This document shows, piece by piece, positions 3,281 to 50,332 of a stretch of DNA of 64,000 nucleotides. The translations under genes were made by a program, and so were the position numbers. The notes under the pieces were generated by a model. The model was not told the DNA's origin. It did not search any database and worked only from the letters and a program-made list of their open reading frames with translations. Source of the stretch: Pontibacter akesuensis. Its GTDB lineage: Bacteria > Bacteroidota > Bacteroidia > Cytophagales > Hymenobacteraceae. The number at the start of each line of letters is the position of its first letter. The stretch's first letter is position 1. The stretch is from positions 3,968,001 to 4,032,000 of the forward strand of contig NZ_CP014766.1 in the NCBI RefSeq assembly GCF_001611675.1. Direction: 5' to 3'.

Positions 3281-4113
3281 TTTCCATAACGATGTTGTAT
3301 TCCTGAAAAGCATGCTTAATTAGCGATCAATGGAGTGGTAAAAAAAGATCAAGTCCACTCCATTGCTATAGCTTGCTGCTAATGATTGGATGGACACATT
3401 GTATATTCTCTTATCGATATATACAACTGGAGTTACGTGTACAGGATGTATTCGGGAGAAGCCAAATCTTACCACGCCCTGAAGGACTTCGGGCCTATCT
3501 CTCGGTTAACTGAGTGAAATTTACTGACGCAAAGTTTCACCATCTTCCAGCGAGCCAGTCAAAACGATGTTCATTCTTTTTATAGAAGCTTTGCCACCGC
3601 AAAAATTAATAGAGCTGCTGTTTGAAAATACTTCCTGTAGTTAAAAAAGGGGAGTGCCGCCGTAGTTTTGTTGCGTCTGTGCATGATGCTTTTGTAACAG
3701 CGGCATGTGATAAACCTGTACTTTTAATCCTTTATACTTTACAGGGTGACCTACCTTCGGCTCCAGAAGCCTTGCTTTAGCAGTCTTATAAAAAAACTTT
3801 TCATCCACAATACTCAAGGTTTGCATCAAGGCGCTGCCCTATGCAAGTGAAACAGGTTACCAGCTAACCCTATTTTACTTGCATAATTTACTGGTTTGCA
3901 GACAAAATAATGGACTTCGTCTAAATCTATAGATGCTAGTTTGTAATACATAGTACTATGTGCTACTTTGGTGATGCAAGTACACCCGTACGATTGGAGC
4001 TGTGGGGGAATGCAGCTCATATAGTAGAAAATTAAAACACTTTTTCTGCTTATTTAATTACCTGAAGTTCAGATGATAGAGCTTAATTGTATATACGCTA
4101 GCACAATAAAACT
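3281..4113. other. Long intergenic region with weak coding remnants
   Basis: No convincing gene. Two short minus-strand frames (3641-3829 and 3826-4020) overlap by four bases but have no recognisable domain. A plus-strand stretch near 3437-3510 reads GEAKSYHALKDFGPISRLTE and then stops, which looks like a protein fragment I cannot name. The last 100 bases are AT-rich and probably contain the promoter of the ABC transporter operon. Confidence 0.4.
3328..3365. repeat. Perfect 11-bp inverted repeat
   Basis: Arms CAATGGAGTGG (3328-3338) and CCACTCCATTG (3355-3365) enclose a 16-base A-rich spacer. There is no T-run after it, so a terminator is unlikely. It could be an operator or the end of a decayed element. 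Confidence 0.6.
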
Positions 4114-14688: not shown

Positions 14689-14868
14689 GAATAGTGTCCG
14701 AAGCAAATAAAAAAAGGCCTTCAGTGTTAGCTGAAGGCCTTTCGTGTAGACCGAAGGAGTGAATTATCGAACTTTATCCACAGTGATTTAGTGGCTGTGG
14801 AAACTTATCTTCAGTTAGGAGAGGAAGTTTGATATACATTCGCCTGTTGAACATAACTGTTGGTATAG
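14689..14868 (+). repeat. Long direct repeat, copy 1
   Basis: About 180 bp, closely similar to 20110-20286 and in the same orientation. In order: GAATAGTGTCCGAAG, a terminator-like hairpin (14713-14742), GAATTATCGAA, the nonamer TTATCCACA (14774-14782) in a small stem with GGCTGTGGA, and a tail GTTGAACATAAC. The two copies bracket the copper/silver cassette. Confidence 0.8.
14713..14742. terminator. Terminator-like hairpin inside repeat copy 1
   Basis: Arms AAAGGCCTTCAG and CTGAAGGCCTTT with a 6-base loop, preceded by an A-run. It could end minus-strand transcription from the copper ATPase gene. The hairpin is kept in the second repeat copy, where its arms are longer. Confidence 0.65.
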
Positions 14869-19737: not shown

Positions 19738-20555
19738 ACGAGTGCGTGCTGGAGAGGACTAACCCTCTCTGCTGTTTATTACTCTCTTCTACGCCTTGTG
19801 GTGTCCCAGAAAAAGGCCGTTTTAGCGATACTGGTAAGCAGTATACAAGTTTTGTGTATAGTGAGTCCCAATTTGCCGTCTCATTAATCAAACCGGTATT
19901 TTGATTAATGAGATGAGTTGGTGATACAGTAGAGCGACTTTACTTCTAGAGCATATCAACGAACATTCAATAGAGAGGGGAGGCCAAGAGAATAGGAGCA
20001 GGTTGCGCTGGAAGGTGGAAAGAAAAGTAAAGAAACATTAGCTCCCGTTAATGGTCAATTCAGCCTACTTATGGGGAGCGCATGACAGAGATGCGCAGCT
20101 TTAGTGTCCGAATAGTGTCCGAAGTACACGAAAGGCCTTCAGGGTTAACTGAAGGCCTTTCGTGTAGAACCGTAGGATTGAATTATCGAACCTTATCCAC
20201 AATGATTTAGTGGCTGTGGAAACGTATCTTCAGGTAGGAGAGGAGGTTTGAAACACACTCTCTTGTTGAACATAACAGCTGTTATAAACCTCCTTTAAGG
20301 ACAATCAACCTTATGCTAAAGGCGGAAAAGCTGTAGAGCCTGATAGAACTTTGACCTAAAGCAGCGCCTTAACTGTCAACCATGCCCAATGCGGATCTTT
20401 ATACAAGCGTGGCTTCTGCACATTAATAATAACGACACTTATGCTCGGCAGAGATAACCGGCTTCTAGATGCATTACAAGTCTAAGAACTTCCTGTTGCA
20501 CCTGGTGATGATAGCGGGTATTCCGGCTCCGGACTTCATGCCGACTTTGGCTGGC
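19738..20555. other. Intergenic region carrying repeat copy 2
   Basis: No intact gene. It contains the second copy of the ~180-bp direct repeat (20110-20286), preceded by an extra AGTGTCCGAA unit at 20103. The rest shows no recognisable coding remnant. Confidence 0.6.
20110..20286 (+). repeat. Long direct repeat, copy 2
   Basis: Same order of elements as copy 1 at 14689: GAATAGTGTCCGAAG, hairpin, AATTATCGAA, TTATCCACA (20193-20201), TTTAGTGGCTGTGGAAAC, TTGTTGAACATAAC. Here the hairpin arms are 17 bp (ACACGAAAGGCCTTCAG and its complement). Differences from copy 1 are scattered substitutions, so the duplication is not recent. Confidence 0.8.
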
Positions 20556-24862: not shown

Positions 24863-24915
24863 CAAGCCAACAGAAAAGCCGCTGATTGAACATCAGCGGC
24901 TTTTCTGTTGGCTTG
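24863..24915. terminator. Long rho-independent terminator
   Basis: A stem of about 24 bp built around CAAGCCAACAGAAAAGCC and its complement, with a five-base loop. It closes the OmpA gene. Confidence 0.85.
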
Positions 24916-35836: not shown

Positions 35837-36322
35837 GCCTTCCTAAGGACCACATGTTGCTGCAAACCATTTAACGACAGGCGCTATTGTGCCAACAAAT
35901 AAGCAGAGTGGTGACTTGAGCCAGCACTTCGTTAGCCGTCTGTGGAGAAAGGGAACGTTGTCTAAAATTCCATAAGTGAAGATTGTAATATGCGGGGAAT
36001 AGGTGTATGTTAACTTAACAACTAATGCTGCCTTGTTGACAGGCGCTGTCCCAAGAGCGGCCATTTTCCCACTACAGGTTTTGAAGGTCATCCCCGGTAT
36101 TGCTTCCGCTTGCTCCTGCTTGTTTTTGCTTGCCTATGCTTGTTATTGCTTGCTCTTGTCCCGGAAAAATGAGGGTTAAATGAGACGAATTGGGTGAGGG
36201 CTTAGCATAAGAGAAATTTCAATTACAGCCTCTAAAAACTAATATGGTACATTATATATAGGTAAAGTAGTCAGGGAATTTGCCTGGCTGCTTACAGCCT
36301 ACATAAAAGACTAACAGGCTTT
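35837..36322. other. Intergenic region at proposed left edge of the element
   Basis: No gene. The block ACAGGCGCT occurs twice (near 35877 and 36041). The 10-bp-period array A1 lies at 36099-36160. An open minus-strand frame at 35843-36091 has no recognisable content. Confidence 0.5.
36099..36160 (-). repeat. 10-bp-period CAAGC array A1
   Basis: GCTTG on the plus strand recurs at 36108, 36118, 36128, 36138 and 36148, an exact 10-bp step. Read on the minus strand it is CAAGC, the same word as in the right-hand arrays. Confidence 0.8.
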
Positions 36323-37670: not shown

Positions 37671-37750
37671 CGGTTGCTCCAGGTTGCCCGTGGTTGCTGT
37701 CCGTTGCCCACGGTTGCTCTGCGTTGCTCTCGGTTGCCCTTGGTTGCTCC
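37671..37750 (-). repeat. 10-bp-period GTTGC array A2 (8 units)
   Basis: GTTGC starts at 37673, 37683, 37693, 37703, 37713, 37723, 37733 and 37743, an exact 10-bp step with no slippage. Flanking bases favour GG before and C or T after. On the minus strand the word is GCAAC. Confidence 0.95.
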
Positions 37751-37896
37751 TGTCCCAGTTTTGTGGATGCAAACAGCTGCCCGAAACCGAAAACGGCTGT
37801 CGCACACCTGGTGCTGCCCCTTTCCGAAGCTGTTTCAAACGCTTTCCACCCGAAAGCAACAGAATGTTGCTACCTGTTGCCTGGAAAAAGGCCTAT

Positions 37897-38879: not shown

Positions 38880-41800
38880 ATGCAGCACACAGTACTACGG
38901 CCGAAGCAGGCACTAAACAAGGCATACCTCCGTAACAAGACATCACGCACTGAGATGGAGCAGTTCAAGGAGGCGCTCAGCACCCTGCTCGACAGCATCG
39001 ACTTGACCGAGAGCGAGGAGCACGTAAAGAACCACCTGCGCGACTTCCTGAAAGGCACGTTCTACGGAAAGCACGGCGTGAACACCAAAGGCAAGACGGA
39101 CCTGGTGATACACACCGGCGCCAATACCAAGAGCCCTGCCGGCGTGCTGCTGGAGGTGAAGCGGCCTACTAACAAGGCCGACATGCCTACCCGCGAGAGC
39201 CTGAACTGTAAGGCCATGCACGAGCTGGTGCTGTATTACCTGCGCGAGCGGGTGGAGCACAAGAACAACGACCTCAAGCAGCTCGCCATCACCAGCGTGC
39301 ACGAGTGGTTTGTGTTCGATGCCCTGGAGTTCGACCGCCTGTTTTACCGCAACGGCCAGCTGAGGCGGGATTTCACCGACTGGAGCCAGGGCAAGAAGTC
39401 CGGCAATAGCACCGACTTCTTCTACAAGGAGATAGCCGCGCCTTACATAGCCAAGCTGCAGGAGAGCATCACCTTCACACATTTCAACCTGAAGGATTAC
39501 GAGAAGCCGCTGCGCAACAAGGACCTGAAGGACGACGTGAAGCTGGTGGCGCTGTACAAGCTGCTCTCGCCGGCGCACCTGCTCAAGGAATCCTTCACCA
39601 ACGATGCCAACTCACTGGACCCCGGCTTTTACCTGGAGCTGCTGCACATCATCGGCCTGGAGGAGGTGAAGGAGGGTGGCCGTAAGCTGATCCAGCGCAA
39701 GGCAAAGCCCGACGGCGGCTCACTGCTGGAGGCTGCCTACCAGAAGCTAAAATCCGAGGATTTGATCAGCGGCCTGGATAACCCCTACAGCTACGGCAGC
39801 ACCCGCGAGGAGCAGCTGTTCAGCGTGGCCCTGGAGCTGTGCATCACTTGGATGAACCGCATCCTGTTCCTGAAACTGCTGGAGGCGCAGCTGGCCAGCT
39901 ACCACCACGGCGACAAGGCCTACGTGTTCATGCGCCACGATAACCTGAAGGAGTTTGACGATTTGAACGAGCTGTTCTTCGACGTGCTGGCGGAGCGGCC
40001 CGAGAACCGCAGCGCCAACGTGCGCCACAAGTATAGCCACATCCCGTACCTCAACTCTTCGCTGTTCGAGACCACGGCCCTGGAGAAACGCACGCTGCGT
40101 ATCTCCAACCTGAAGGACAACAGCCGCCTGCCGCTTTACGCCAAGACCGTGCTGCGTGACGTGTCGGGCAAGCCGCTGATCAAAAGCCAGCCCGACATGC
40201 GCACGCTGGAGTACCTGCTGCGCTTTCTGGCCAGCTACGACTTTGGGGCCGAGGGCAAGGAGGAGATACAGGAGGAGAACAAGACGCTGATCACGGCCTC
40301 GGTGCTGGGGCTGATCTTCGAGAAGATAAACGGCTACCGCGACGGCTCCTTCTACACGCCCGGCTTCATCACCATGTACATGAGCCGCGAGGCTATTAGG
40401 CGGGCCGTGGCGCGGCGCTTTGCCGAGAAGTATGGCTGGGGATCTGGTTCGGATAAAAACGGACTCACGTTCGAATCCCTGCAGCTCCACATACACCAGA
40501 ACTACAGCTTAGAAAACATAAGGGAGTACAACCAGCTCATCAACGGCATCCGGGTCTGCGACCCGGCCGTGGGCTCGGGGCACTACCTGGTGAGCGCCCT
40601 GAACGAGCTGATTGTGATAAAGCATGAGCTGAGACTGCTGCTGAGCCGGCAGGGAAAGCCGCTGCACTATGGAGGCATAGAGGTGGCTAACGACGAGCTG
40701 ATCATAACCGACCTGCACGGCGATCCTTTCAGCTACACCGTGACTGACCATGCAGACGGGCACCGCACAGTAAACCCTCAGGTGCAGGAGCTGCAGGAGG
40801 CGCTTTTCCATGAGAAGCAGACCATCATCGAGAACTGCCTGTTCGGCGTGGACATCAACCCGAACTCGGTGAAGATATGCCGCCTGCGCCTCTGGATAGA
40901 GCTGCTCAAGAACGCCTACTACCAGCAGCAGGAAACAGGCAACTACACCCAGCTGCAGACGCTTCCCAACATCGACATTAACATAAAGCAGGGCAATTCG
41001 CTGCTGAGCCGCTACCCGCTCTCGGCCGACCTGCAGGAGGCATTCGGCAAGAAGGGCCACAGCCTGCAAGCCTACCGCGAGGCGGTGCTGAAGTACAAGC
41101 ACACCAACTCCAAAGATGACAAGAAGCGGCTGGTGGCTTTCCTGGACGAGATTAAGCAGGGCTTCAGAACCTCTTTGTCTAACCGCGACCCGCTTCGCAA
41201 GGCTCTGTCCAAGATCAGGGGGGAGCTGGCCATGCTGGACAACAACATCGACCTGTTTGGCAACAAGTTTAAGAAAGAGGAGGACAGGGTTTGGGAGAAA
41301 AAGCGGTTGGTGAAGCTACTGGAGCAGAAGGAAAAAGAGGTGGAGGACATAGAGGCCAACGCCATGTTTCAGAACGCCTTTGAGTGGCGGTTTGAATTCC
41401 CGGAGGTGCTGGACGAGCAGGGTAGCTTTACTGGTTTTGATGTGGTGATCGGAAACCCGCCGTACATACGGCAGGAGGAGCTAGGCAGCTTTAAAGTATA
41501 CTTGAAGAAGGCCTATAGCACCTTTGCTGGCACCGCCGACCTGTATGTTTACTTTGTGGAGCGTGGCATAGAGCTGCTGCGCGAGGGCGGGCAGTTCAGC
41601 TACATTTTGCCTAACAAATGGATGCGCGCCGGTTACGGACAGTCGCTGCGAACCTGGCTCCAAAACCATACGTTGGTGCAGCTGCTGGACTTCGGCGATC
41701 TGCCTGTGTTTGAGGAAGCCACCACATACCCGCTCATACTTGCCGTGGCAAAGTATAAACCTGAGGCTGGCTATACTTTTGAGGCCGCCACTATAAACAC

Positions 41801-42785
41801 CCTAAAGTATGAGCAGGGGATGGAGGCATACGTGCAGCAACACAAGTATGAAGTGCAGGCCGACTTGCTGCCCGACTCCGGTTGGACACTCTCCGATAGC
41901 ACCGCACAGCAACTGCTGGAGAAGCTGAAAAACACCGGCACGCCGCTTGGCGAGTATGTGGAGGGTAAAATTTACCGTGGCGTTCTGACTGGCCTTAATG
42001 AGGCTTTTGTAATTGATGAAGCCACCAAAGATCGCCTCATTGCTGAAGACTCGCGAAGTGCAGAAATCATAAAACCATTTCTGGCTGGCCGTGATGTGAA
42101 ACGGTATCAGCCACCTAAGTCGGATAAACATCTTATACTTTTTCCTGCTGGATTCACGAAAAGTAAGATTGGTAACGCGAATGAACAAAAGGCTTGGGAG
42201 TGGATACAGCAGAACTATACTGCTGTAGCTCGATTTTTGGCCCCCTTTGCTGATAAGGCAAGAAAGCGTGCTGATAAAGGTAATTACTGGTGGGAATTGA
42301 GAGCCTGTGCATACTATGACGAGTTTGAGAAGCCAAAGATTCTTTTTCAGGAAATTGCCACTTTCAATGCTTTTGCTTGGGATGTATCAGGCGCTTATTC
42401 CAACAACAAGACTTTTATAGTTCCGGATGCTGATTTATACTTGCTTGGTCTGCTTAACTCTAAAGTAGTTTGGTACTTCATAAACCAGATTGCTTCAAAA
42501 CTTCAGGGTGGAGCTTTAGCCATGCAAACACCTTATACTTTCCAAATTCCTATAGTTTCTGATGACGAAGAATCGAAAGTAAGTATAACGCAGCTGGTGG
42601 AGCAGATACTAAGTATAAAACAAGCCGATGCCGCTGCCGACACATCAAAACTGGAGGCTAAAATAGATGTGCTGGTGTACCGCCTCTACCACCTCACCTA
42701 TGAGGAGGTGCTATTGGTAGACCCCGGCTTTGCCCTCAGCCGTGACCAATATGAGTTTGCTCCGGCCTTTGTGGCCAAAGTTTAG
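38880..42785 (+). CDS. Eco57I-like type IIG restriction-modification protein
   Basis: A 1301-residue fused nuclease and DNA methyltransferase. The N-terminal part has a PD-(D/E)xK-like nuclease pattern (TDLVIHTG about residue 75 and LLEVKRP about 92). The methyltransferase has motif I DPAVGSGHYLVSALN (about 560) and motif IV NPPYIRQEE (about 859), as in N6-adenine enzymes. The last ~350 residues should be the target-recognition region. From about 41.98 kb the DNA becomes visibly more AT-rich than the first part, which suggests exchange of the recognition module. I keep the start at 38880 because LNKAYxxxxxxxxxxEQFK matches the family N-terminus. It needs no separate subunits. Confidence 0.88.
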   Translation: MQHTVLRPKQALNKAYLRNKTSRTEMEQFKEALSTLLDSIDLTESEEHVKNHLRDFLKGTFYGKHGVNTKGKTDLVIHTGANTKSPAGVLLEVKRPTNKADMPTRESLNCKAMHELVLYYLRERVEHKNNDLKQLAITSVHEWFVFDALEFDRLFYRNGQLRRDFTDWSQGKKSGNSTDFFYKEIAAPYIAKLQESITFTHFNLKDYEKPLRNKDLKDDVKLVALYKLLSPAHLLKESFTNDANSLDPGFYLELLHIIGLEEVKEGGRKLIQRKAKPDGGSLLEAAYQKLKSEDLISGLDNPYSYGSTREEQLFSVALELCITWMNRILFLKLLEAQLASYHHGDKAYVFMRHDNLKEFDDLNELFFDVLAERPENRSANVRHKYSHIPYLNSSLFETTALEKRTLRISNLKDNSRLPLYAKTVLRDVSGKPLIKSQPDMRTLEYLLRFLASYDFGAEGKEEIQEENKTLITASVLGLIFEKINGYRDGSFYTPGFITMYMSREAIRRAVARRFAEKYGWGSGSDKNGLTFESLQLHIHQNYSLENIREYNQLINGIRVCDPAVGSGHYLVSALNELIVIKHELRLLLSRQGKPLHYGGIEVANDELIITDLHGDPFSYTVTDHADGHRTVNPQVQELQEALFHEKQTIIENCLFGVDINPNSVKICRLRLWIELLKNAYYQQQETGNYTQLQTLPNIDINIKQGNSLLSRYPLSADLQEAFGKKGHSLQAYREAVLKYKHTNSKDDKKRLVAFLDEIKQGFRTSLSNRDPLRKALSKIRGELAMLDNNIDLFGNKFKKEEDRVWEKKRLVKLLEQKEKEVEDIEANAMFQNAFEWRFEFPEVLDEQGSFTGFDVVIGNPPYIRQEELGSFKVYLKKAYSTFAGTADLYVYFVERGIELLREGGQFSYILPNKWMRAGYGQSLRTWLQNHTLVQLLDFGDLPVFEEATTYPLILAVAKYKPEAGYTFEAATINTLKYEQGMEAYVQQHKYEVQADLLPDSGWTLSDSTAQQLLEKLKNTGTPLGEYVEGKIYRGVLTGLNEAFVIDEATKDRLIAEDSRSAEIIKPFLAGRDVKRYQPPKSDKHLILFPAGFTKSKIGNANEQKAWEWIQQNYTAVARFLAPFADKARKRADKGNYWWELRACAYYDEFEKPKILFQEIATFNAFAWDVSGAYSNNKTFIVPDADLYLLGLLNSKVVWYFINQIASKLQGGALAMQTPYTFQIPIVSDDEESKVSITQLVEQILSIKQADAAADTSKLEAKIDVLVYRLYHLTYEEVLLVDPGFALSRDQYEFAPAFVAKV

Positions 42786-42973: not shown

Positions 42974-43984
42974 TTAAACGGTGGCCAGCAGGAAGTCGGC
43001 TATATCCAAACCCTCCTGCCTTTGCCGCTCGTTGGCAATCCGCTCCAAAAGGTCAGAAACCGTTAAGGAAACGATATTTTGTAGCTCCTGCGCTTTCTGG
43101 CGCCACTTCTCGTAACCTCCTAAATCCGGGAAGAGCGTGACGTCCCTGCCCTGGAGCACACTGCACCGCTCCGCCGTCAACATAAAGAGGCCGCCCAACG
43201 CCAGCCATATGTACCTTGGCAGCATCAATGAGCAGATAATGGCCGTCTTCTCGCTCTCCACCACGGCCACCGGCTTTTTGGGGAACTGCCGCAGCAGGTG
43301 CTCTCCGAACAGGCACTGCCTGAGGCAGTAATCCTCCTGCTTAAGATGCCGGTGCGCCCAATCGATGTGGTCATACGGCTTCTTGACCCTTTTGCCCGTA
43401 ATCTTGTTGTAGAGCATGATCTTTCCCGTCCTGATTTTTCCCTGTTGGTCGATCTGCCAAAAAACCGTGGCCCCGGGCCACCTTTTGGAGGTGCCGATAT
43501 GGTATAGCGAGACAAGTTTTTCGGCTGTTTCTACTCCTAGCTTGCTTATGAGATACTGCACAAAGTTATTCTGCCCGTAGTGCCTGCGGCTTTCCTGCAG
43601 CACCTCCAACGGCACGCAGGAGGGCTGTTGCGCTTTGTTGCTTTGCGCAGACAGCGAAGCAACAAAGTGTTGCCCGTTGTTGCCACTAGATGGTTTCTGG
43701 TGTTGCCGACCTCTGACAGCCATGTTGCTTTTTGGCAACCGGTCTGTTGCCCCGGTGTTGCCGCTCTCGGCAAGCCACGGGTTATCCTCATAGAACTGCC
43801 TCGGCGAGTAGCTATAGCCGCACTTGCTCTGCCTGTTGCAGCTCCCCACCGTCTCGTGCACGTAATTGCCCGTGTCGGTGTCTATGTAGCGCGTGAACTC
43901 CCTTTTCTTTCCGCAGCCGGGGCAAGCGTGGCGTGTGTTCCGGCCGCTGCCGTAGGGCTCAAGGATGTATCTGTACCGGCTCAT
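42974..43984 (-). CDS. DUF6371 / toprim-like primase protein
   Basis: A 336-residue protein. The N-terminus has a CHC2-like zinc ribbon: HACPGCGKKREFTRYIDT and GSCNRQSKCGYSY. The C-terminal half has a toprim-like core (KKPVAVVESEKTAIICSL, then LFPDLGGYEKWRQKA). This is the layout of DUF6371 proteins, which I read as primase-related. The middle (about 75-120) is encoded by array A6 and is Gln/Asn/Ser-rich. I took the ATG at 43984; the longer frame would translate the 27-bp inverted repeat. It follows the DUF3987 gene, and the two probably act in element replication. Confidence 0.75.
   Translation of the reverse strand: MSRYRYILEPYGSGRNTRHACPGCGKKREFTRYIDTDTGNYVHETVGSCNRQSKCGYSYSPRQFYEDNPWLAESGNTGATDRLPKSNMAVRGRQHQKPSSGNNGQHFVASLSAQSNKAQQPSCVPLEVLQESRRHYGQNNFVQYLISKLGVETAEKLVSLYHIGTSKRWPGATVFWQIDQQGKIRTGKIMLYNKITGKRVKKPYDHIDWAHRHLKQEDYCLRQCLFGEHLLRQFPKKPVAVVESEKTAIICSLMLPRYIWLALGGLFMLTAERCSVLQGRDVTLFPDLGGYEKWRQKAQELQNIVSLTVSDLLERIANERQRQEGLDIADFLLATV
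43627..43761 (-). repeat. GTTGC array A6 inside the primase-like gene
   Basis: GTTGC starts at 43627, 43637, 43669, 43679, 43702, 43724, 43746 and 43757. Steps are 10, 32, 10, 23, 22, 22 and 11, all near multiples of 10.5. In the coding (minus) sense the word is GCAAC. One opposite word lies at 43734. Confidence 0.75.
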
Positions 43985-44009: not shown

Positions 44010-44071
44010 TTGCATTTCTTGCACTTTGTGCACTTTACTCCTGCAAAGTGCACAAAGTGCAAGAAATGCAA
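44010..44071. repeat. Perfect 27-bp inverted repeat
   Basis: Arms 44010-44036 and 44045-44071 are exact complements around an 8-base spacer. Each arm contains the words TGCACTTTGTGCACTTT, so the arm itself has an internal repeat of GTGCAC-type half sites. It fills the gap between the DUF3987 stop (44077) and the DUF6371 start (43984). There is no T-run after it. Candidate roles are an operator, an RNA hairpin controlling the second gene, or a replication/transfer origin structure. Confidence 0.95.
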
Positions 44072-44076
44072 TGTTG

Positions 44077-45516
44077 TTAAAGCTGCTTTTCATACTGCCC
44101 GTGGCTTACCTTGGTGAAGAGCGTCTTCTCCGACAGGAACTTCTTGAACGTCCGTTCAGGCATTCCGTGCCGCTCGGCCGCAAGCAGTCCCTCGGCCGTG
44201 GTGAAGTGCTGCGGCAGCTGCGCGTAAAGGTTTCGCTGCCCCTGGCTGTAGCGGTCGAGCGGGTCCTCGTTGCGCACGATGCGCTGCACCACCCTTGCCG
44301 TGGCGCGGAAGTACTCGGCCAGCAGTATGGCCCCCTCCACGGCCTTCAGCTCTATCGCCTCCTTCCCGTCCTCGTTGCAGGCCCAGGCCATCAGCTGCAA
44401 CACCAGCGCGAAGCGGATGGCGTAGGACTCCAGCTTCGTGTAGACGCCCTGCAGTGCCTCGCTCTCGGCTGCGTTGCAGAGATCCGTGTTCACCGCCTGC
44501 CACTCCTGCAGCCTTGCCCAGGCGGCGGGGGAGAAGCGCAGCTGGCGCGGCACGGGCGTATCCCACTCGTCCTTCTCCAGCCTCAGGTCCGTCAGAAACG
44601 AGATGCACTTTTCCCAGTTGTAGGCGTGGGCCGCGTCGAGGGTGAGATCGCTCCACCTTTCCTTGCGTACCTGCTGGGGCATGGCGAAGAGGAACCTGTC
44701 TATAAAGCCGTTGTCGGACTTGCCGTCCCTGGCCAGCTGCAGCAGTACCCCATTCTGGATCGTTCCGACTATGGGGATGAAGGGCCGCTTGATGCGCAGC
44801 GAGATGCGCGAGAGGCGGTCCACGCTCACGGTCTTGCCGCTCCAGGCGCTGAGCCAGAACTCCACGTCGCCGCCACTTGTGTAGCGGTTGAGGTTCTTGA
44901 TGAAGCCGGCCAGCTCGTCGGCCACCACGCACACGCCCCTGGGGTTGTGGCTGTGCGCCTCGGTCAAGGCCTCCTGGGTGAAGTCCGACACCAGGTTCTT
45001 GCTTAGCACCGGCTTCTCGATTTCCTCCGCCGCAGGATCACGCTGCTTGCGGCTCATGCCCTGCAGCATGTCGTACTCCTTCCGCTCCTGGGCGTAGCGG
45101 TGGTAGGACTCGTCGTCGCGCTTTGCCAGGGGTGCGAAGGCAAAGGTGAGCGGATGGCTCTTGTTCGAGCCGGGCGGGGCCACGAGCGCAGCGTACAGCA
45201 CGGCGCCCTCCTGCCATCCCGGCATCACATAGGCCGTGTGCGTGTTGCCGATGGCCGTGGCCGCCGCAGTGAGCATGGAGGTGGCGATGAAGTCCAGCGG
45301 GAAGCGCAGGCTCTCGTTGGTGGCGCGGATGATCCGCTGCACGGCCTGCGGGAAGGCCTGCACCGGGAACGGGTTTGCCGCCGGGCTCTTAGCTTTTGAT
45401 GCCGCGGGTGCGGGCTCCTTTCGCAGCTCCTCTAGGATAAGGTCCGCCTGCGTGAAATCGGGCGTCAGCGTGTCCGGCTGCGCCTGTGTGTCTTGTTGTG
45501 GTTGCTCCATTTGCAT
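44077..45516 (-). CDS. DUF3987 protein (primase-helicase-like)
   Basis: A 479-residue protein of the DUF3987 family, common on Bacteroidota mobile elements and prophages. A P-loop-like segment APPGSNKSHPL (about residue 113) is followed by a Walker-B-like GVCVVADELAGFIKNL and a sensor-like PFIPIVGTIQNGVLLQL. The N-terminal ~45 residues are Gln/Pro/Ala-rich and probably disordered. The pattern suggests a RecA/AAA-type ATPase used in replication. It is transcribed leftward ahead of the DUF6371 gene. Confidence 0.8.
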   Translation of the reverse strand: MQMEQPQQDTQAQPDTLTPDFTQADLILEELRKEPAPAASKAKSPAANPFPVQAFPQAVQRIIRATNESLRFPLDFIATSMLTAAATAIGNTHTAYVMPGWQEGAVLYAALVAPPGSNKSHPLTFAFAPLAKRDDESYHRYAQERKEYDMLQGMSRKQRDPAAEEIEKPVLSKNLVSDFTQEALTEAHSHNPRGVCVVADELAGFIKNLNRYTSGGDVEFWLSAWSGKTVSVDRLSRISLRIKRPFIPIVGTIQNGVLLQLARDGKSDNGFIDRFLFAMPQQVRKERWSDLTLDAAHAYNWEKCISFLTDLRLEKDEWDTPVPRQLRFSPAAWARLQEWQAVNTDLCNAAESEALQGVYTKLESYAIRFALVLQLMAWACNEDGKEAIELKAVEGAILLAEYFRATARVVQRIVRNEDPLDRYSQGQRNLYAQLPQHFTTAEGLLAAERHGMPERTFKKFLSEKTLFTKVSHGQYEKQL

Positions 45517-45627: not shown

Positions 45628-46572
45628 TTATTTCCTTTTACTTGAGCCGGGCCTTTGTTTGATGCCGTCGAACTTGGGCCTGTAGGCGGTGGTGTACACG
45701 TCCGGGTACACAAAGCCGCGACTGGGCTTGACCAGCTGGCGAATCGTGTCACCTTTGGTATAGGCGGCGCTGATTGTCCTGTGCTCGATTTCCTTGATCC
45801 ATCCCTTTCGCTTCAGCTCGATGTGCATTTCCGCCAGCTCCTTCTGTGTTCCGAGCCACTCAAATTTGTTTAACCCCAGTGCCGTCACGTCGAGCGGTAC
45901 GTGCAAGCTCTCCGTTTCGCGCGTGTCCTCCTTCTCCCGTTGCGCAGTTTCGTTCAAAGCCGACTGGAAAAGCTCTGGGAATAGCCTGATGCCGATGGCC
46001 TCCACCGCATTGAAGTCCCGCAGCCCCGGCTCAACGTTGTCTATCTTCGCTGCCTCGAGCTGTATCTGCTCTTGTGTGAAGGCGGGCTCCAGCCTCCTCA
46101 CCTGGCTTGTCAGGGTGTGGTACACTATAAGGAATTTGGCAACGGCGCTGTCACCTTCGGCAGTGCCTGCTGCTGTTTGGCTTTCCAGGCGCTGCACCCA
46201 GCGAAGCCAGTAGCGGAAGGCTTCCTCGCTCACGCGCTCCAGGTTTGCGATAGTGCCGTCTGCGTGGAGGGCGGCAAGCTTGAGCATCCCTGACAGGCTT
46301 ACCTCCCTTGCCTTGGCGATGCCCGCCGAGGGCGCAGATCTTCTGTTAATAGAGAAAGCGCCCTCGAATACGGTGATGATCTCTTGCAGCCGAGGCGTTT
46401 TCTCAAAAGACTTCCTGAGCGCGCCAATGGACAGGAGCTGCAGGTAAAAGGCCAGGCCTTTGTGCCCGACCTCTTCCAGGCTTGTTCTCACTTGCTGCAG
46501 CGCGAAGCTTTCGTACCGCTTCTGAAGTGCCCAGAAGCGGCTGTCACTGTATGTCGGTGCTGTGTTGCTCAT
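45628..46572 (-). CDS. Unknown element protein, possible winged-helix end
   Basis: A 314-residue mostly helical protein that I do not recognise. It starts MSNTAPTYSDSRFWALQKRY. The region 225-270 (LGLNKFEWLGTQKELAEMHI, then ELKRKGWI) resembles a small winged-helix or replication-initiator-type DNA-binding segment. The tail is basic (KQRPGSSKRK). It is divergent from the MerR-like gene, and its mRNA leader consists of array A5. Position ahead of the DUF3987/DUF6371 genes suggests a replication or control role (inference). Confidence 0.7.
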   Translation of the reverse strand: MSNTAPTYSDSRFWALQKRYESFALQQVRTSLEEVGHKGLAFYLQLLSIGALRKSFEKTPRLQEIITVFEGAFSINRRSAPSAGIAKAREVSLSGMLKLAALHADGTIANLERVSEEAFRYWLRWVQRLESQTAAGTAEGDSAVAKFLIVYHTLTSQVRRLEPAFTQEQIQLEAAKIDNVEPGLRDFNAVEAIGIRLFPELFQSALNETAQREKEDTRETESLHVPLDVTALGLNKFEWLGTQKELAEMHIELKRKGWIKEIEHRTISAAYTKGDTIRQLVKPSRGFVYPDVYTTAYRPKFDGIKQRPGSSKRK

Positions 46573-46610
46573 TGTTGCTACTTGTTGCTACTTGTTGCTG
46601 TTTGTTGCCA
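46561..46610 (-). repeat. 10-bp-period GTTGC array A5 (5 units) in an mRNA leader
   Basis: GTTGC starts at 46564, 46574, 46584, 46594 and 46604, exactly 10 apart. It spans the start codon (46570-46572) and the whole predicted leader of the 314-aa gene. A further GTTGC lies at 46625. Confidence 0.95.
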
Positions 46611-47678: not shown

Positions 47679-48014
47679 AAAGCGCGTGAATGAAGCGCTG
47701 GACCACAAAAGCAGCCCAAGAACAAGCAGAAGCAAGCACCGGCAAGCAAAAGCAAGACAAGCCAAGCAAAAGCAATACAAAACAAGCAGGACCAATACAG
47801 AGCAAGCAGAAGCATAAGCACAGCAACCGGAAGCAACCAACAGCAACGCAGAGCAACCAAGAGCAACCGGAAGCAACGCTGGTCAAGCATAAGCAAGACA
47901 AAACAAGCAAAAGCAAGACTGCGTGCCAAGTAAACGGCACTGAAGACCTTAGGCCGATAGAGAGCAGGGCGGCCGTACCGGAAAAACCGGACGGCCGCGC
48001 TAACGGAAGAATCC
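47679..48014 (+). other. Array-filled gap between regulator and recombinase genes
   Basis: Two thirds of this stretch is array A3 (47721-47920). A frame open across it (47690-48106) would give a 138-residue Lys/Gln/Ser-rich chain translated from the repeats; I do not count it as a gene because it has no independent coding signal. Confidence 0.6.
47721..47920 (+). repeat. 10-bp-period GCAAG/GCAAC array A3 (20 units)
   Basis: Twenty units of 10 bp with one single-base phase shift between unit 10 and unit 11. Units 1-10 mostly carry GCAAG, ACAAG or GCAAT, units 11-16 carry GCAAC, and units 17-20 return to the CAAG type. The variable half of each unit differs freely, so only the 5-bp core and its spacing are kept. 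Confidence 0.95.
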
Positions 48015-48335
48015 GTGAACACTTCAACTATAACCAAACTAAAAGAGCATTCAGAGAAAAAGCAGCGCCCGAAGGGGCAGAAAAAGAAAAACAAACCGGC
48101 CGCTAACCCTCAAAAGCCTGGGGAAGCCGATCCGCAGGAGGAGGGCCTGTACGCGCAGGTAAGGCAGGACGAGGCGCTTCGGGCCTACCACACCGCAAGG
48201 CTCCTGGAAACACCCGGCTACGGGCACCTGGGCGAAGGCGGGGCAGGTGAGATGGTCGAGCAGATGCTCCGGCTCTCCACGCTCCTCTACGAGATGCTCC
48301 TGGAGGAAAGGAAGGAGGCAATCCATGAACGGTGA
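48015..48335 (+). CDS. Small protein coupled to the recombinase
   Basis: A 106-residue protein from a GTG start. The first 45 residues are Lys/Pro-rich. The second half is helical (EEGLYAQVRQDEALRAYHTA, then GEMVEQMLRLSTLLYEMLLE). Its last codons overlap the start of the recombinase gene (ATG at 48325, stop at 48333-48335), so the two are translationally coupled. It could be a recombination directionality factor or accessory protein, but nothing in the sequence proves this. Confidence 0.6.
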   Translation: MNTSTITKLKEHSEKKQRPKGQKKKNKPAANPQKPGEADPQEEGLYAQVRQDEALRAYHTARLLETPGYGHLGEGGAGEMVEQMLRLSTLLYEMLLEERKEAIHER

Positions 48336-50298
48336 AAGCGGGAAAAGGCAGCGGGGCGGCAAGCAGGCATCAATAGTCAGGAAAAGCAACCGTGGGCAAC
48401 CAACAGCAACCGGGAGCAACCAAGAGCAACAACAAGCAACGCAGGACAAGCAAAAGCAAGACAAAACAAGCAAAAGCAAGACAAAACAAGCAGGAGCAAT
48501 ACAGGTCAAGCAGGAGCAACGCACAGCAACCGAGGGCAACCATGAGCAACGCAGAGCAACCGGGAGCAACAAGAAGACGAAAAACGGCAACAAAACAGCA
48601 ACAATGGGCAACAGCAAAGCAACAGGCAGGACGATGGCAAATAAGCAAAAGGCAACAAGCGGCAACACGCAGGCGGCAACAAAAGGCAACACGGACCTAA
48701 GCGTATTCGCCCGGCCGCAGCTGGCAGGCAAGAAGAAAAGCAAAGCGGCCGTAAGGGGAAAGGTGGCCGTGATCTACACCCGCGTCTCCACCAAGGAGCA
48801 GGCCGAGACGAACCAGAGCCTGGAGACGCAGCTGGAGCGCTGCCGCGGTTATGCCCAGCGCCACGGCTATGAAGTCGTGAACGAGTTCGGCGGCACCTAC
48901 GAGAGCGCCAAGAACGATGAGCGCAAGCACTTCCAGCTGATGCTTGACTTCGTGAAGAAGAGCCGCCACAAGGTCGGCCACATCATCGTCTACTCCCACG
49001 ACCGCTTCTCGCGCTCGGGCTCCAACGCCATCTACATCGCCGACCAGCTCGCGCAGCTGGGCATCTCGGTGGTGGCCGTCACCCAGCCGGTGGACACGAT
49101 GACCGCCTCGGGCAAGCTGCAGCAGGGCATCCAGTTCCTCTTCTCCCAGTTCGACAACGACCAGCGGCGCGAGAAGTGCGTGACGGGCATGGAGGCCAAG
49201 GTGCGCAAGGGCTACCTGATGGGCAAGGCACCCATGGGCTACGACCAGCTGCGGGTGAACGGAGAGCAGGTGATAAAGCCGAACAAAGACGGGAAGCTCA
49301 TCCGCCTGGCCTTCCAGCTCAAGGCCGAGCAGGGGCTAAGTAACACCGACATCATCAAGCGGCTGAAGGCGCAGGGCCTCTCGCTCTACAACCAGACGCT
49401 CACCAAGATCTTCAAGAACCCGTTCTACTGCGGCCTGATCACGCATGGCTTGCTGGACGAGGGCGAGGTGATCGTGGGAAGGCACGAGCCGCTTATATCG
49501 CGCGACGTTTTCCTAAGGGTGAACGGCCTGCAGGCGCAGAACGCCCACGGCTACACCCAGGTGAAGGAGGACGAGCAGCTGCCACTAAGACATCACGTCA
49601 AGTGCGGCAGCTGCCAAAAGCCGCTCACGGGCTACGAGATGAAGAAGAAGGGCATCCACTACTACAAGTGCAACACCAGGGGCTGCTGCCTCAACAGAAA
49701 CGCCGGAAAGATGCACGAGCTGTACGGTGATCTGCTCAAAGAATACCAGATAGACCCCATGCTTTTGCCGCAGGTGCAGGAGATGATGTCGCAGGTGTTC
49801 AAGAAGCTGGGCCAGGACCATGAGCAGCAGGAAAAAAGACTGAAGCTGCAGCTATCGGAGTTGGAAAAGAAAAAGGATACGCTCGAGCGACGCTACGCCT
49901 ACGGCGAGATCAACGGGGAAATATTCTCAAAATTCAGCGGTGAGCTGAAAGGGGAGATGGGGGAAATAGAGGTGAACATGGAAAAACTCTCCGGCCCCTT
50001 ATCGAACCACAAAACGCTGCTGGGAAAAGGGCTTAAAATGATGCTAAGTCTCTCATCCACATGGGCTAAGGCTGAAGTGTCGCAAAGGAAGAGGCTGCAG
50101 GCGTTGGTGTTCCCGGACGGGGTGGAATATGAGCGCGAAAAGCAGGCTTATCGAACCACCCGCGTCAACTCCTTTTTCGGCCTTGCCGCGGAGATTTCAC
50201 AGGAAATGGGGCAAAAAGAAAGAGGGAAAAGCGATCCTGAAAATCACTTTTCCCTCCTGGTAGCCCGTAGGGGAATCGAACCCCTGTTACTAGAATGA
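48325..50298 (+). CDS. Large serine recombinase (integrase)
   Basis: A 657-residue large serine recombinase. The catalytic domain starts at about residue 148 (VAVIYTRVSTKEQ, nucleophile Ser155), unusually late. Then come a recombinase domain (about 290-400), a zinc ribbon (VKCGSCQKPLTG and CNTRGCC), a coiled coil (about 490-560) and a C-terminal tail. The ~110 residues before the catalytic domain are encoded by array A4. The last residues (LLVARRGIEPLLLE) are simply the antisense of the tRNA-Glu gene. I took the ATG at 48325, coupled to the small ORF; the frame is open 26 codons further. Confidence 0.93.
   Translation: MNGESGKRQRGGKQASIVRKSNRGQPTATGSNQEQQQATQDKQKQDKTSKSKTKQAGAIQVKQEQRTATEGNHEQRRATGSNKKTKNGNKTATMGNSKATGRTMANKQKATSGNTQAATKGNTDLSVFARPQLAGKKKSKAAVRGKVAVIYTRVSTKEQAETNQSLETQLERCRGYAQRHGYEVVNEFGGTYESAKNDERKHFQLMLDFVKKSRHKVGHIIVYSHDRFSRSGSNAIYIADQLAQLGISVVAVTQPVDTMTASGKLQQGIQFLFSQFDNDQRREKCVTGMEAKVRKGYLMGKAPMGYDQLRVNGEQVIKPNKDGKLIRLAFQLKAEQGLSNTDIIKRLKAQGLSLYNQTLTKIFKNPFYCGLITHGLLDEGEVIVGRHEPLISRDVFLRVNGLQAQNAHGYTQVKEDEQLPLRHHVKCGSCQKPLTGYEMKKKGIHYYKCNTRGCCLNRNAGKMHELYGDLLKEYQIDPMLLPQVQEMMSQVFKKLGQDHEQQEKRLKLQLSELEKKKDTLERRYAYGEINGEIFSKFSGELKGEMGEIEVNMEKLSGPLSNHKTLLGKGLKMMLSLSSTWAKAEVSQRKRLQALVFPDGVEYEREKQAYRTTRVNSFFGLAAEISQEMGQKERGKSDPENHFSLLVARRGIEPLLLE
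48381..48690 (+). repeat. 10-bp-period GCAAC/ACAAG array A4 (19 exact units plus tail)
   Basis: From 48381 to 48570 there are 19 consecutive 10-bp units with the core in the last five positions: six GCAAC, then a mix of ACAAG, GCAAG, GCAAT and TCAAG, then six GCAAC. A looser tail follows, with GCAAC at 48587, 48598, 48608, 48619, 48652, 48662, 48676 and 48686. The whole array is within the coding sequence of the recombinase. Confidence 0.97.
50224..50254 (-). terminator. Terminator of tRNA-Glu
   Basis: GGGAAAAG (50224-50231) pairs with CTTTTCCC (50247-50254), followed on the minus strand by a T-rich run. It lies four bases after the tRNA CCA end and inside the last codons of the recombinase frame. 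Confidence 0.75.
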
Positions 50299-50332
50299 AA
50301 ATCTAGCGTCCTAACCCCTAGACGAACGGGCC
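50258..50332 (-). tRNA. tRNA-Glu (TTC)
   Basis: The minus strand folds as a full cloverleaf. The acceptor stem GGCCCGT pairs with ACGGGCT (first pair G-U), the anticodon stem is CTAGA/TCTAG with loop TTTTCAT (anticodon TTC), and the T arm is GGGGTTCGATTCCCC. The discriminator is A and CCA is encoded (50258-50260). The serine recombinase ends inside it on the opposite strand, which marks it as the likely integration site. Confidence 0.95.

Follow-up and report, generated by a model that had tools for sequence, protein, structure and literature searches.

A perfect palindrome between predicted helicase and primase genes is a probable replication origin of an integrated element in Pontibacter akesuensis

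The closest described counterparts of the locus studied here are the origins of staphylococcal and related mobile elements. SaPI/PICI origins are reported to lie directly 3′ of the initiator helicase gene and to contain two sets of short iterons with element-specific sequences (PMC6092414). In SCCmec, the Cch2 helicase is reported to contact, through its C-terminal domain, a 23-bp segment immediately 3′ of its own gene that holds three AAGTG iterons, a putative origin; unwinding needs AAGTG, and inverted repeats are dispensable for binding (PMC7581432). From three 5-mers in 23 bp we infer a 9-bp step. A third point of comparison comes from the Bacteroides mobilizable elements of the NBU1/Tn4555 type, for which plasmid and element records carry an integrase, a helix-turn-helix (HTH) protein, a DUF3987 protein or AAA ATPase, DUF6371, and then mobilization genes. 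This layout probably corresponds to NBU1 orf3-prmN1.

The window analyzed here is a 64,000-nt stretch of Pontibacter akesuensis DNA (NZ_CP014766.1, positions 3,968,001 to 4,032,000). Its features at the locus of interest are as follows.

42974..43984, minus strand: Zn_ribbon_16 and DUF6371 gene, predicted DnaG/T7-type primase (Pfam, model, fold matches, invariant Cys and acidic residues)
44010..44036, minus strand: palindrome arm, with units AAAGTGCAC (44036-44028), AAAGTGCAA (44027-44019) and GAAATGCAA (44018-44010); TRF period 9 on the partner arm
44037..44044, no strand: 8-bp spacer, GCAGGAGT on the minus strand
44045..44071, plus strand: palindrome arm, with the same three units at 44045-44053, 44054-44062 and 44063-44071; TRF reports period 9 at 44044-44061
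44077..45516, minus strand: DUF3987 gene, 479 aa, predicted MCM-like ring helicase (Pfam, structure model, fold matches to MCM and SCCmec Cch, 5dgk)
44086..44244, minus strand: codons of a winged helix predicted at the C terminus (residues about 425-477) and proposed to read the units (model secondary structure; weak HTH matches, NarL, E 0.04)

An inverted-repeat search of the window recovered the perfect 27-base arms and 8-base loop that the preliminary description had reported: 44010-44036 and 44045-44071 are 100% complementary. The palindrome ranked first of 23 inverted repeats (arms of at least 16 nt, distance of at most 200 nt), and the probability of a perfect 27-nt match by chance is negligible at such a length. 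It occupies 62 of the 92 nt between the DUF3987 stop codon (44077) and the DUF6371 ATG (43984), with only 44072-44076 setting it off from the stop codon and 25 nt between it and the start codon. From the center outward, each arm reads as three 9-bp units with an AAGTG-like core, and the units of both arms point outward. GTGCAC half-site repeats had been proposed inside the arms; that motif is present once per arm, but the real internal repeat is the 9-bp unit. The claim that the palindrome is not a standard terminator was borne out. No T-run follows the stem on the coding strand in the window, and TTTT directly follows the repeat in only 2 of 42 relatives, so an intrinsic terminator was rejected. 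We also rejected a genome-wide repeat or REP/MITE copy, because the palindrome is single copy: a genome search returned only the palindrome itself in its two orientations, and an 18-mer allowed up to three mismatches hit 17 places, 4 of which belong to the palindrome, compared with 5 hits when the pattern was reversed. The second longest perfect inverted repeat in the window has 24-bp arms and a 5-nt spacer (24863-24915).

Relatives were collected by the DUF6371 protein or family. The first set held 128 oriented loci, reduced to 117 by removal of 11 duplicates and to 102 by removal of 15 without a placeable gene start; it still includes close relatives, which are removed in a nonredundant test of 30 loci. 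A second set, from viral contigs, was reduced from 80 loci to 31 by dropping those whose gene start could not be placed, whose sequence upstream was too short, or whose gaps were identical. In the relatives, an inverted repeat recurs at this position; its letters differ, but the build is the same, namely, short units, mostly 9 bp apart, in mirrored arms (for example, ATATTCTTG, TGTTCACAC, TGTAACAGT, and GTTTCCT). An inverted-repeat score of at least 13 was reached in 37 of 102 gaps and in 2 of 612 control windows taken from these loci; with the same thresholds, the second set gave 10 of 31 gaps and 2 of 186 control windows. Strictly defined gaps reached this score in 34 of 69 cases; for intergenic gaps of other kinds, where terminators are found, the figure was 14 of 193. 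The median distance from stop codon to repeat was 16 nt, with 4 repeats lying inside coding sequence. Spacer length differs widely, and the whole gap is mildly AT rich (0.56, versus 0.50 and 0.49 in the flanking genes; 44 loci). A conserved spacer motif, CCTATA/TATAGG, occurred in 15 of 102 gaps and 39 of 816 controls, a weak excess. Copies of the arms were found elsewhere in the loci at 7 places, versus 2 for reversed arms, which argues against a general repeat.

The earlier suggestion of selection on the palindrome was upheld. Homologous loci with no inverted repeat at this place, which the preliminary description had named as evidence against its reading, do exist: the gaps of L004, the closest relative, and of L007 are examples, but the helicase frame of L004 is cut short by a stop codon, and the upstream frame of L007 is not a recognized helicase. 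Second copies of a locus's own iterons were seen inside the DUF6371 coding region of L011 (1436-1482, a full inverted repeat in the linker) and of L099 (about 382 bases behind the zinc-ribbon start). L214 has a long imperfect inverted repeat of 9-nt units (GGGGCAATT GGGGCAAGT) at 3299-3533, in a gap that does not adjoin the DUF6371 match.

The unit spacing recurs across loci. Recurring 5-mers at a 9-nt step numbered 301 in the first set (37 expected) and 101 in the second (14.3 expected), with smaller peaks at steps of 7, 8, and 18, and their density was 37.9 per kb in the gaps versus 4.1 per kb in other intergenic gaps. AAGTG/CACTT was enriched over controls in the gaps of loci with D5 helicases (9.9 versus 1.9 per kb) and DUF3987 helicases (8.8 versus 2.0) and less so with AAA_25 (3.6 versus 1.4). 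Where neighboring units differ, the differing bases are paired in register in 209 of 260 cases and out of register in 28 of 260, the register having been picked as the best, which favors this result; the symmetry thus extends past the unit core. Unit cores are not spared by mismatches between the arms: core positions account for 50 of 77 mismatches and 566 of 828 matches (p 0.53). A pure iteron reading gets no support from this. Either an extruded cruciform or template-switch repair may underlie the arm symmetry.

Structures were modeled for both flanking proteins. The DUF3987 model (pLDDT 78, pTM 0.73; about 84 to 89 pLDDT at the C-terminal winged helix) matches MCM, and the SCCmec Cch helicase 5dgk is fifth in the Foldseek ranking (E 0.012), although Cch is not among the 50 matches listed by VIA-align. 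D5 relatives match 7ola ("DNA primase") by sequence (E 1.1e-17), presumably a SaPI5 protein. For DUF6371 (mean pLDDT 86), DnaG and T7 primases top the fold list, and the model aligns with 5guj over 190 residues (Z 14.7, rmsd 3.2). A sequence search of the PDB gave no convincing match for DUF6371. Its zinc cysteines and Toprim acids are among the residues that do not vary. With this zinc ribbon and Toprim core, DUF6371 is a predicted primase of the DnaG/T7 type.

We then compared the units with the upstream proteins, 40 of 97 of which were scanned with Pfam; the rest were classified by iterative searches seeded by six of them. Among the 40, DUF5906/D5_N/Pox_D5 accounted for up to 14, DUF3987 for 11, and AAA_25 for 11, in rows that can overlap. 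Several have HTH or winged-helix matches, C-terminal wherever placed. A score of at least 12 was found in 45 of 85 loci with a recognized helicase upstream and in 1 of 17 without one; the 40 helicase loci below this score include some with clear unit repeats and some with none. Spacing follows helicase type, with the 9-bp step in 24 of 26 D5 loci and 6 of 21 AAA_25 loci. Among the 30 nonredundant loci, unit similarity correlated with similarity of the helicase core (rho 0.27, 0 of 1,000 permutations as high; reversed-motif control, 0.12) and of the helicase C terminus (rho 0.12, 9 of 1,000 permutations; control, 0.03), but neither the zinc ribbon of the primase (−0.07) nor its Toprim part (−0.14) showed a correlation. 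Within AAA_25 alone (14 loci), the link holds (C terminus 0.32, 1 of 500); among the 7 D5 loci, it is seen for the core (0.43, 18 of 500) and not for the C terminus (185 of 500); within DUF3987 alone (9 loci), it is absent. These comparisons suggest that the unit sequence goes with the entire helicase, and with the C terminus only weakly.

The module lies in a mobile element, two features of which mark its right side.

48247..50298, plus strand: large serine recombinase encoded by the element (true start uncertain), overlapping the tRNA-Glu gene
50258..50332, minus strand: tRNA-Glu, right edge of the element; followed from the right, the homology shared with four relatives breaks off at the 3′ end of this gene

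Because this homology ends at the 3′ end of tRNA-Glu (50258), we place the right edge of the element there, and together with the recombinase running into the gene, this indicates an integrated element. A repeat common to other Pontibacter genomes occurs in the window at 14692-14789 and 20113-20208; since in L275 it immediately follows tRNA-Glu, the island might begin near 20.2 kb. The element differs from the NBU1/Tn4555 type in having a serine recombinase, and no relaxase was found by Pfam among six window proteins scanned. A circular 10-kb Bacteroides record encodes an AAA ATPase, DUF6371, an integrase, and mobilization functions, and no further replication gene is annotated on it. This suggests that helicase-DUF6371 modules can occur in circular form. 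In this record, the inverted repeat falls within the 3′-terminal part of the ATPase gene. Adjoining the replication module in the window is a 1,301-aa Eco57I/MmeI-like restriction-modification protein with DUF7149 and DUF7814 (38880-42785). The element also contains arrays of GCAAC(N5)/GTTGC(N5) with a 10-bp period (37671-37752, 46563-46608, 47719-47917, and 48385-48604; weaker at 36100-36155 and 43627-43680). Of the triple matches to this pattern genome-wide, 21 of 22 lie inside the element, and a control pattern gave 0. Elements that encode all or part of the 314-aa protein have the arrays (window, L042, and L008), and L041 and L004 lack them; they look like a second, helically phased iteron system.

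We consider the palindrome to be probably the replication origin of this integrated element. In this reading, the three 9-bp units of an arm act as iterons, and the DUF3987 helicase, the product of the adjacent upstream gene, would attach to them through its C-terminal winged helix. Since the sets are mirror images, two helicase rings would be loaded facing opposite ways. They would melt the duplex between the arms or next to them, and primers would be made by the DUF6371 primase, whose gene follows directly downstream. The preliminary description was right to suggest a tie to replication, and an origin had been among its guesses. The recurrence of place, build, and unit spacing, the association of repeat and units with the helicase gene, the AAGTG cores, the predicted folds, and the circular Bacteroides record speak for an origin. 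Against it weigh the 40 helicase loci with low scores, the missing sequence link among DUF3987 loci, the mismatches in the unit cores, the spacer that is not AT rich, and the dispensability of inverted repeats for Cch2 binding.

The comparison with known systems is close in some respects only. As at SaPI/PICI origins, the palindrome is directly 3′ of a helicase gene and holds two sets of short iterons. The SaPI/PICI initiator is a ring helicase with a C-terminal DNA-binding domain; for DUF3987, an MCM-like core and a C-terminal winged helix are predicted. An AT-rich stretch separates the sets there, whereas here the palindrome is nearly contiguous and its 8-bp spacer is not AT rich; the primases of SaPIbov1 and SaPI5 are of the AEP type, whereas the one in the window is predicted to be DnaG type; and the host belongs to Bacteroidota. 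Because the AT-rich spacer is absent and origin activity is a prediction, we do not file the palindrome as a SaPI/PICI-type member. The putative origin at the SCCmec Cch2 site shares the AAGTG-like core, the deduced 9-bp step, and the position 3′ of the helicase gene, but Cch2 is a D5-type helicase that needs one direct set rather than two mirrored ones, and its partner is an A-family polymerase primase. By analogy, the palindrome most likely represents, for mobile elements of Bacteroidota, an origin of the SaPI/PICI/SCC kind that is palindromic and works with a DnaG-type primase. A literature search, with subscription papers mostly outside its coverage, found no publication on this origin.

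Other functions could be served by the same sequence. The palindrome might be an operator through which the helicase winged helix or another element protein regulates the operon, with the origin elsewhere. Inverted sites between two genes fit such a role, and autoregulation would also explain the link to the helicase; we nevertheless regard it as unlikely, since the palindrome lies between co-oriented genes, after the helicase gene and not before it, three direct units per arm exceed the needs of a simple operator, and published relatives have an origin at this very place. Hardly different in probability is control of the second gene by an RNA hairpin, in which the 27-bp stem of the transcript would set the level or timing of DUF6371 translation or protect the mRNA. 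The coding-strand RNA would be very stable (−47.5 kcal/mol for 62 nt), the primase start codon follows closely behind the stem, and the strict in-register symmetry, in the register chosen as best, suits a hairpin. Yet mismatches in the arms of relatives show no G.U bias on the coding strand (A.C 24, G.T 16), which speaks against selection on that RNA and led us to reject it, so this part of the earlier proposal has lost ground. A hairpin would likewise not need the strong 9-nt recurrence, and the link of the repeats to helicase type, the highly variable spacer, and the similar units about 230 nt apart in L127 also count against it.

The proposal of a primase site has fared less well still, and we think it improbable that the DUF6371 zinc ribbon reads a hairpin in single-stranded DNA as the signal to prime. 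A predicted primase with a zinc ribbon does adjoin the hairpin, but the unit sequence follows neither the zinc ribbon nor the Toprim part, and DnaG/T7-type primases recognize a short trinucleotide.

If the palindrome is an origin, a broader scheme can be entertained, though we hold it only tentatively and think it rather less likely than not to apply in full. A large class of Bacteroidota mobile elements might have a common origin design: ring helicases of three unrelated types (MCM-like DUF3987, D5, and AAA_25) would each load as a pair on strictly mirrored iterons of 7 to 9 bp. The exchangeable unit would be the helicase with its adjacent palindrome, and the DnaG-type primase would stay constant. 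In such a design, the strict mirror symmetry beyond the unit core would point to a palindrome that is also extruded as a cruciform or kept perfect by template switching.

The origins of integrative elements in Bacteroidota have hardly been described. The same layout across many related elements makes their unknown start sites testable, and the helicase-iteron pairs form a natural set for working out how the winged helices of helicases change DNA specificity.
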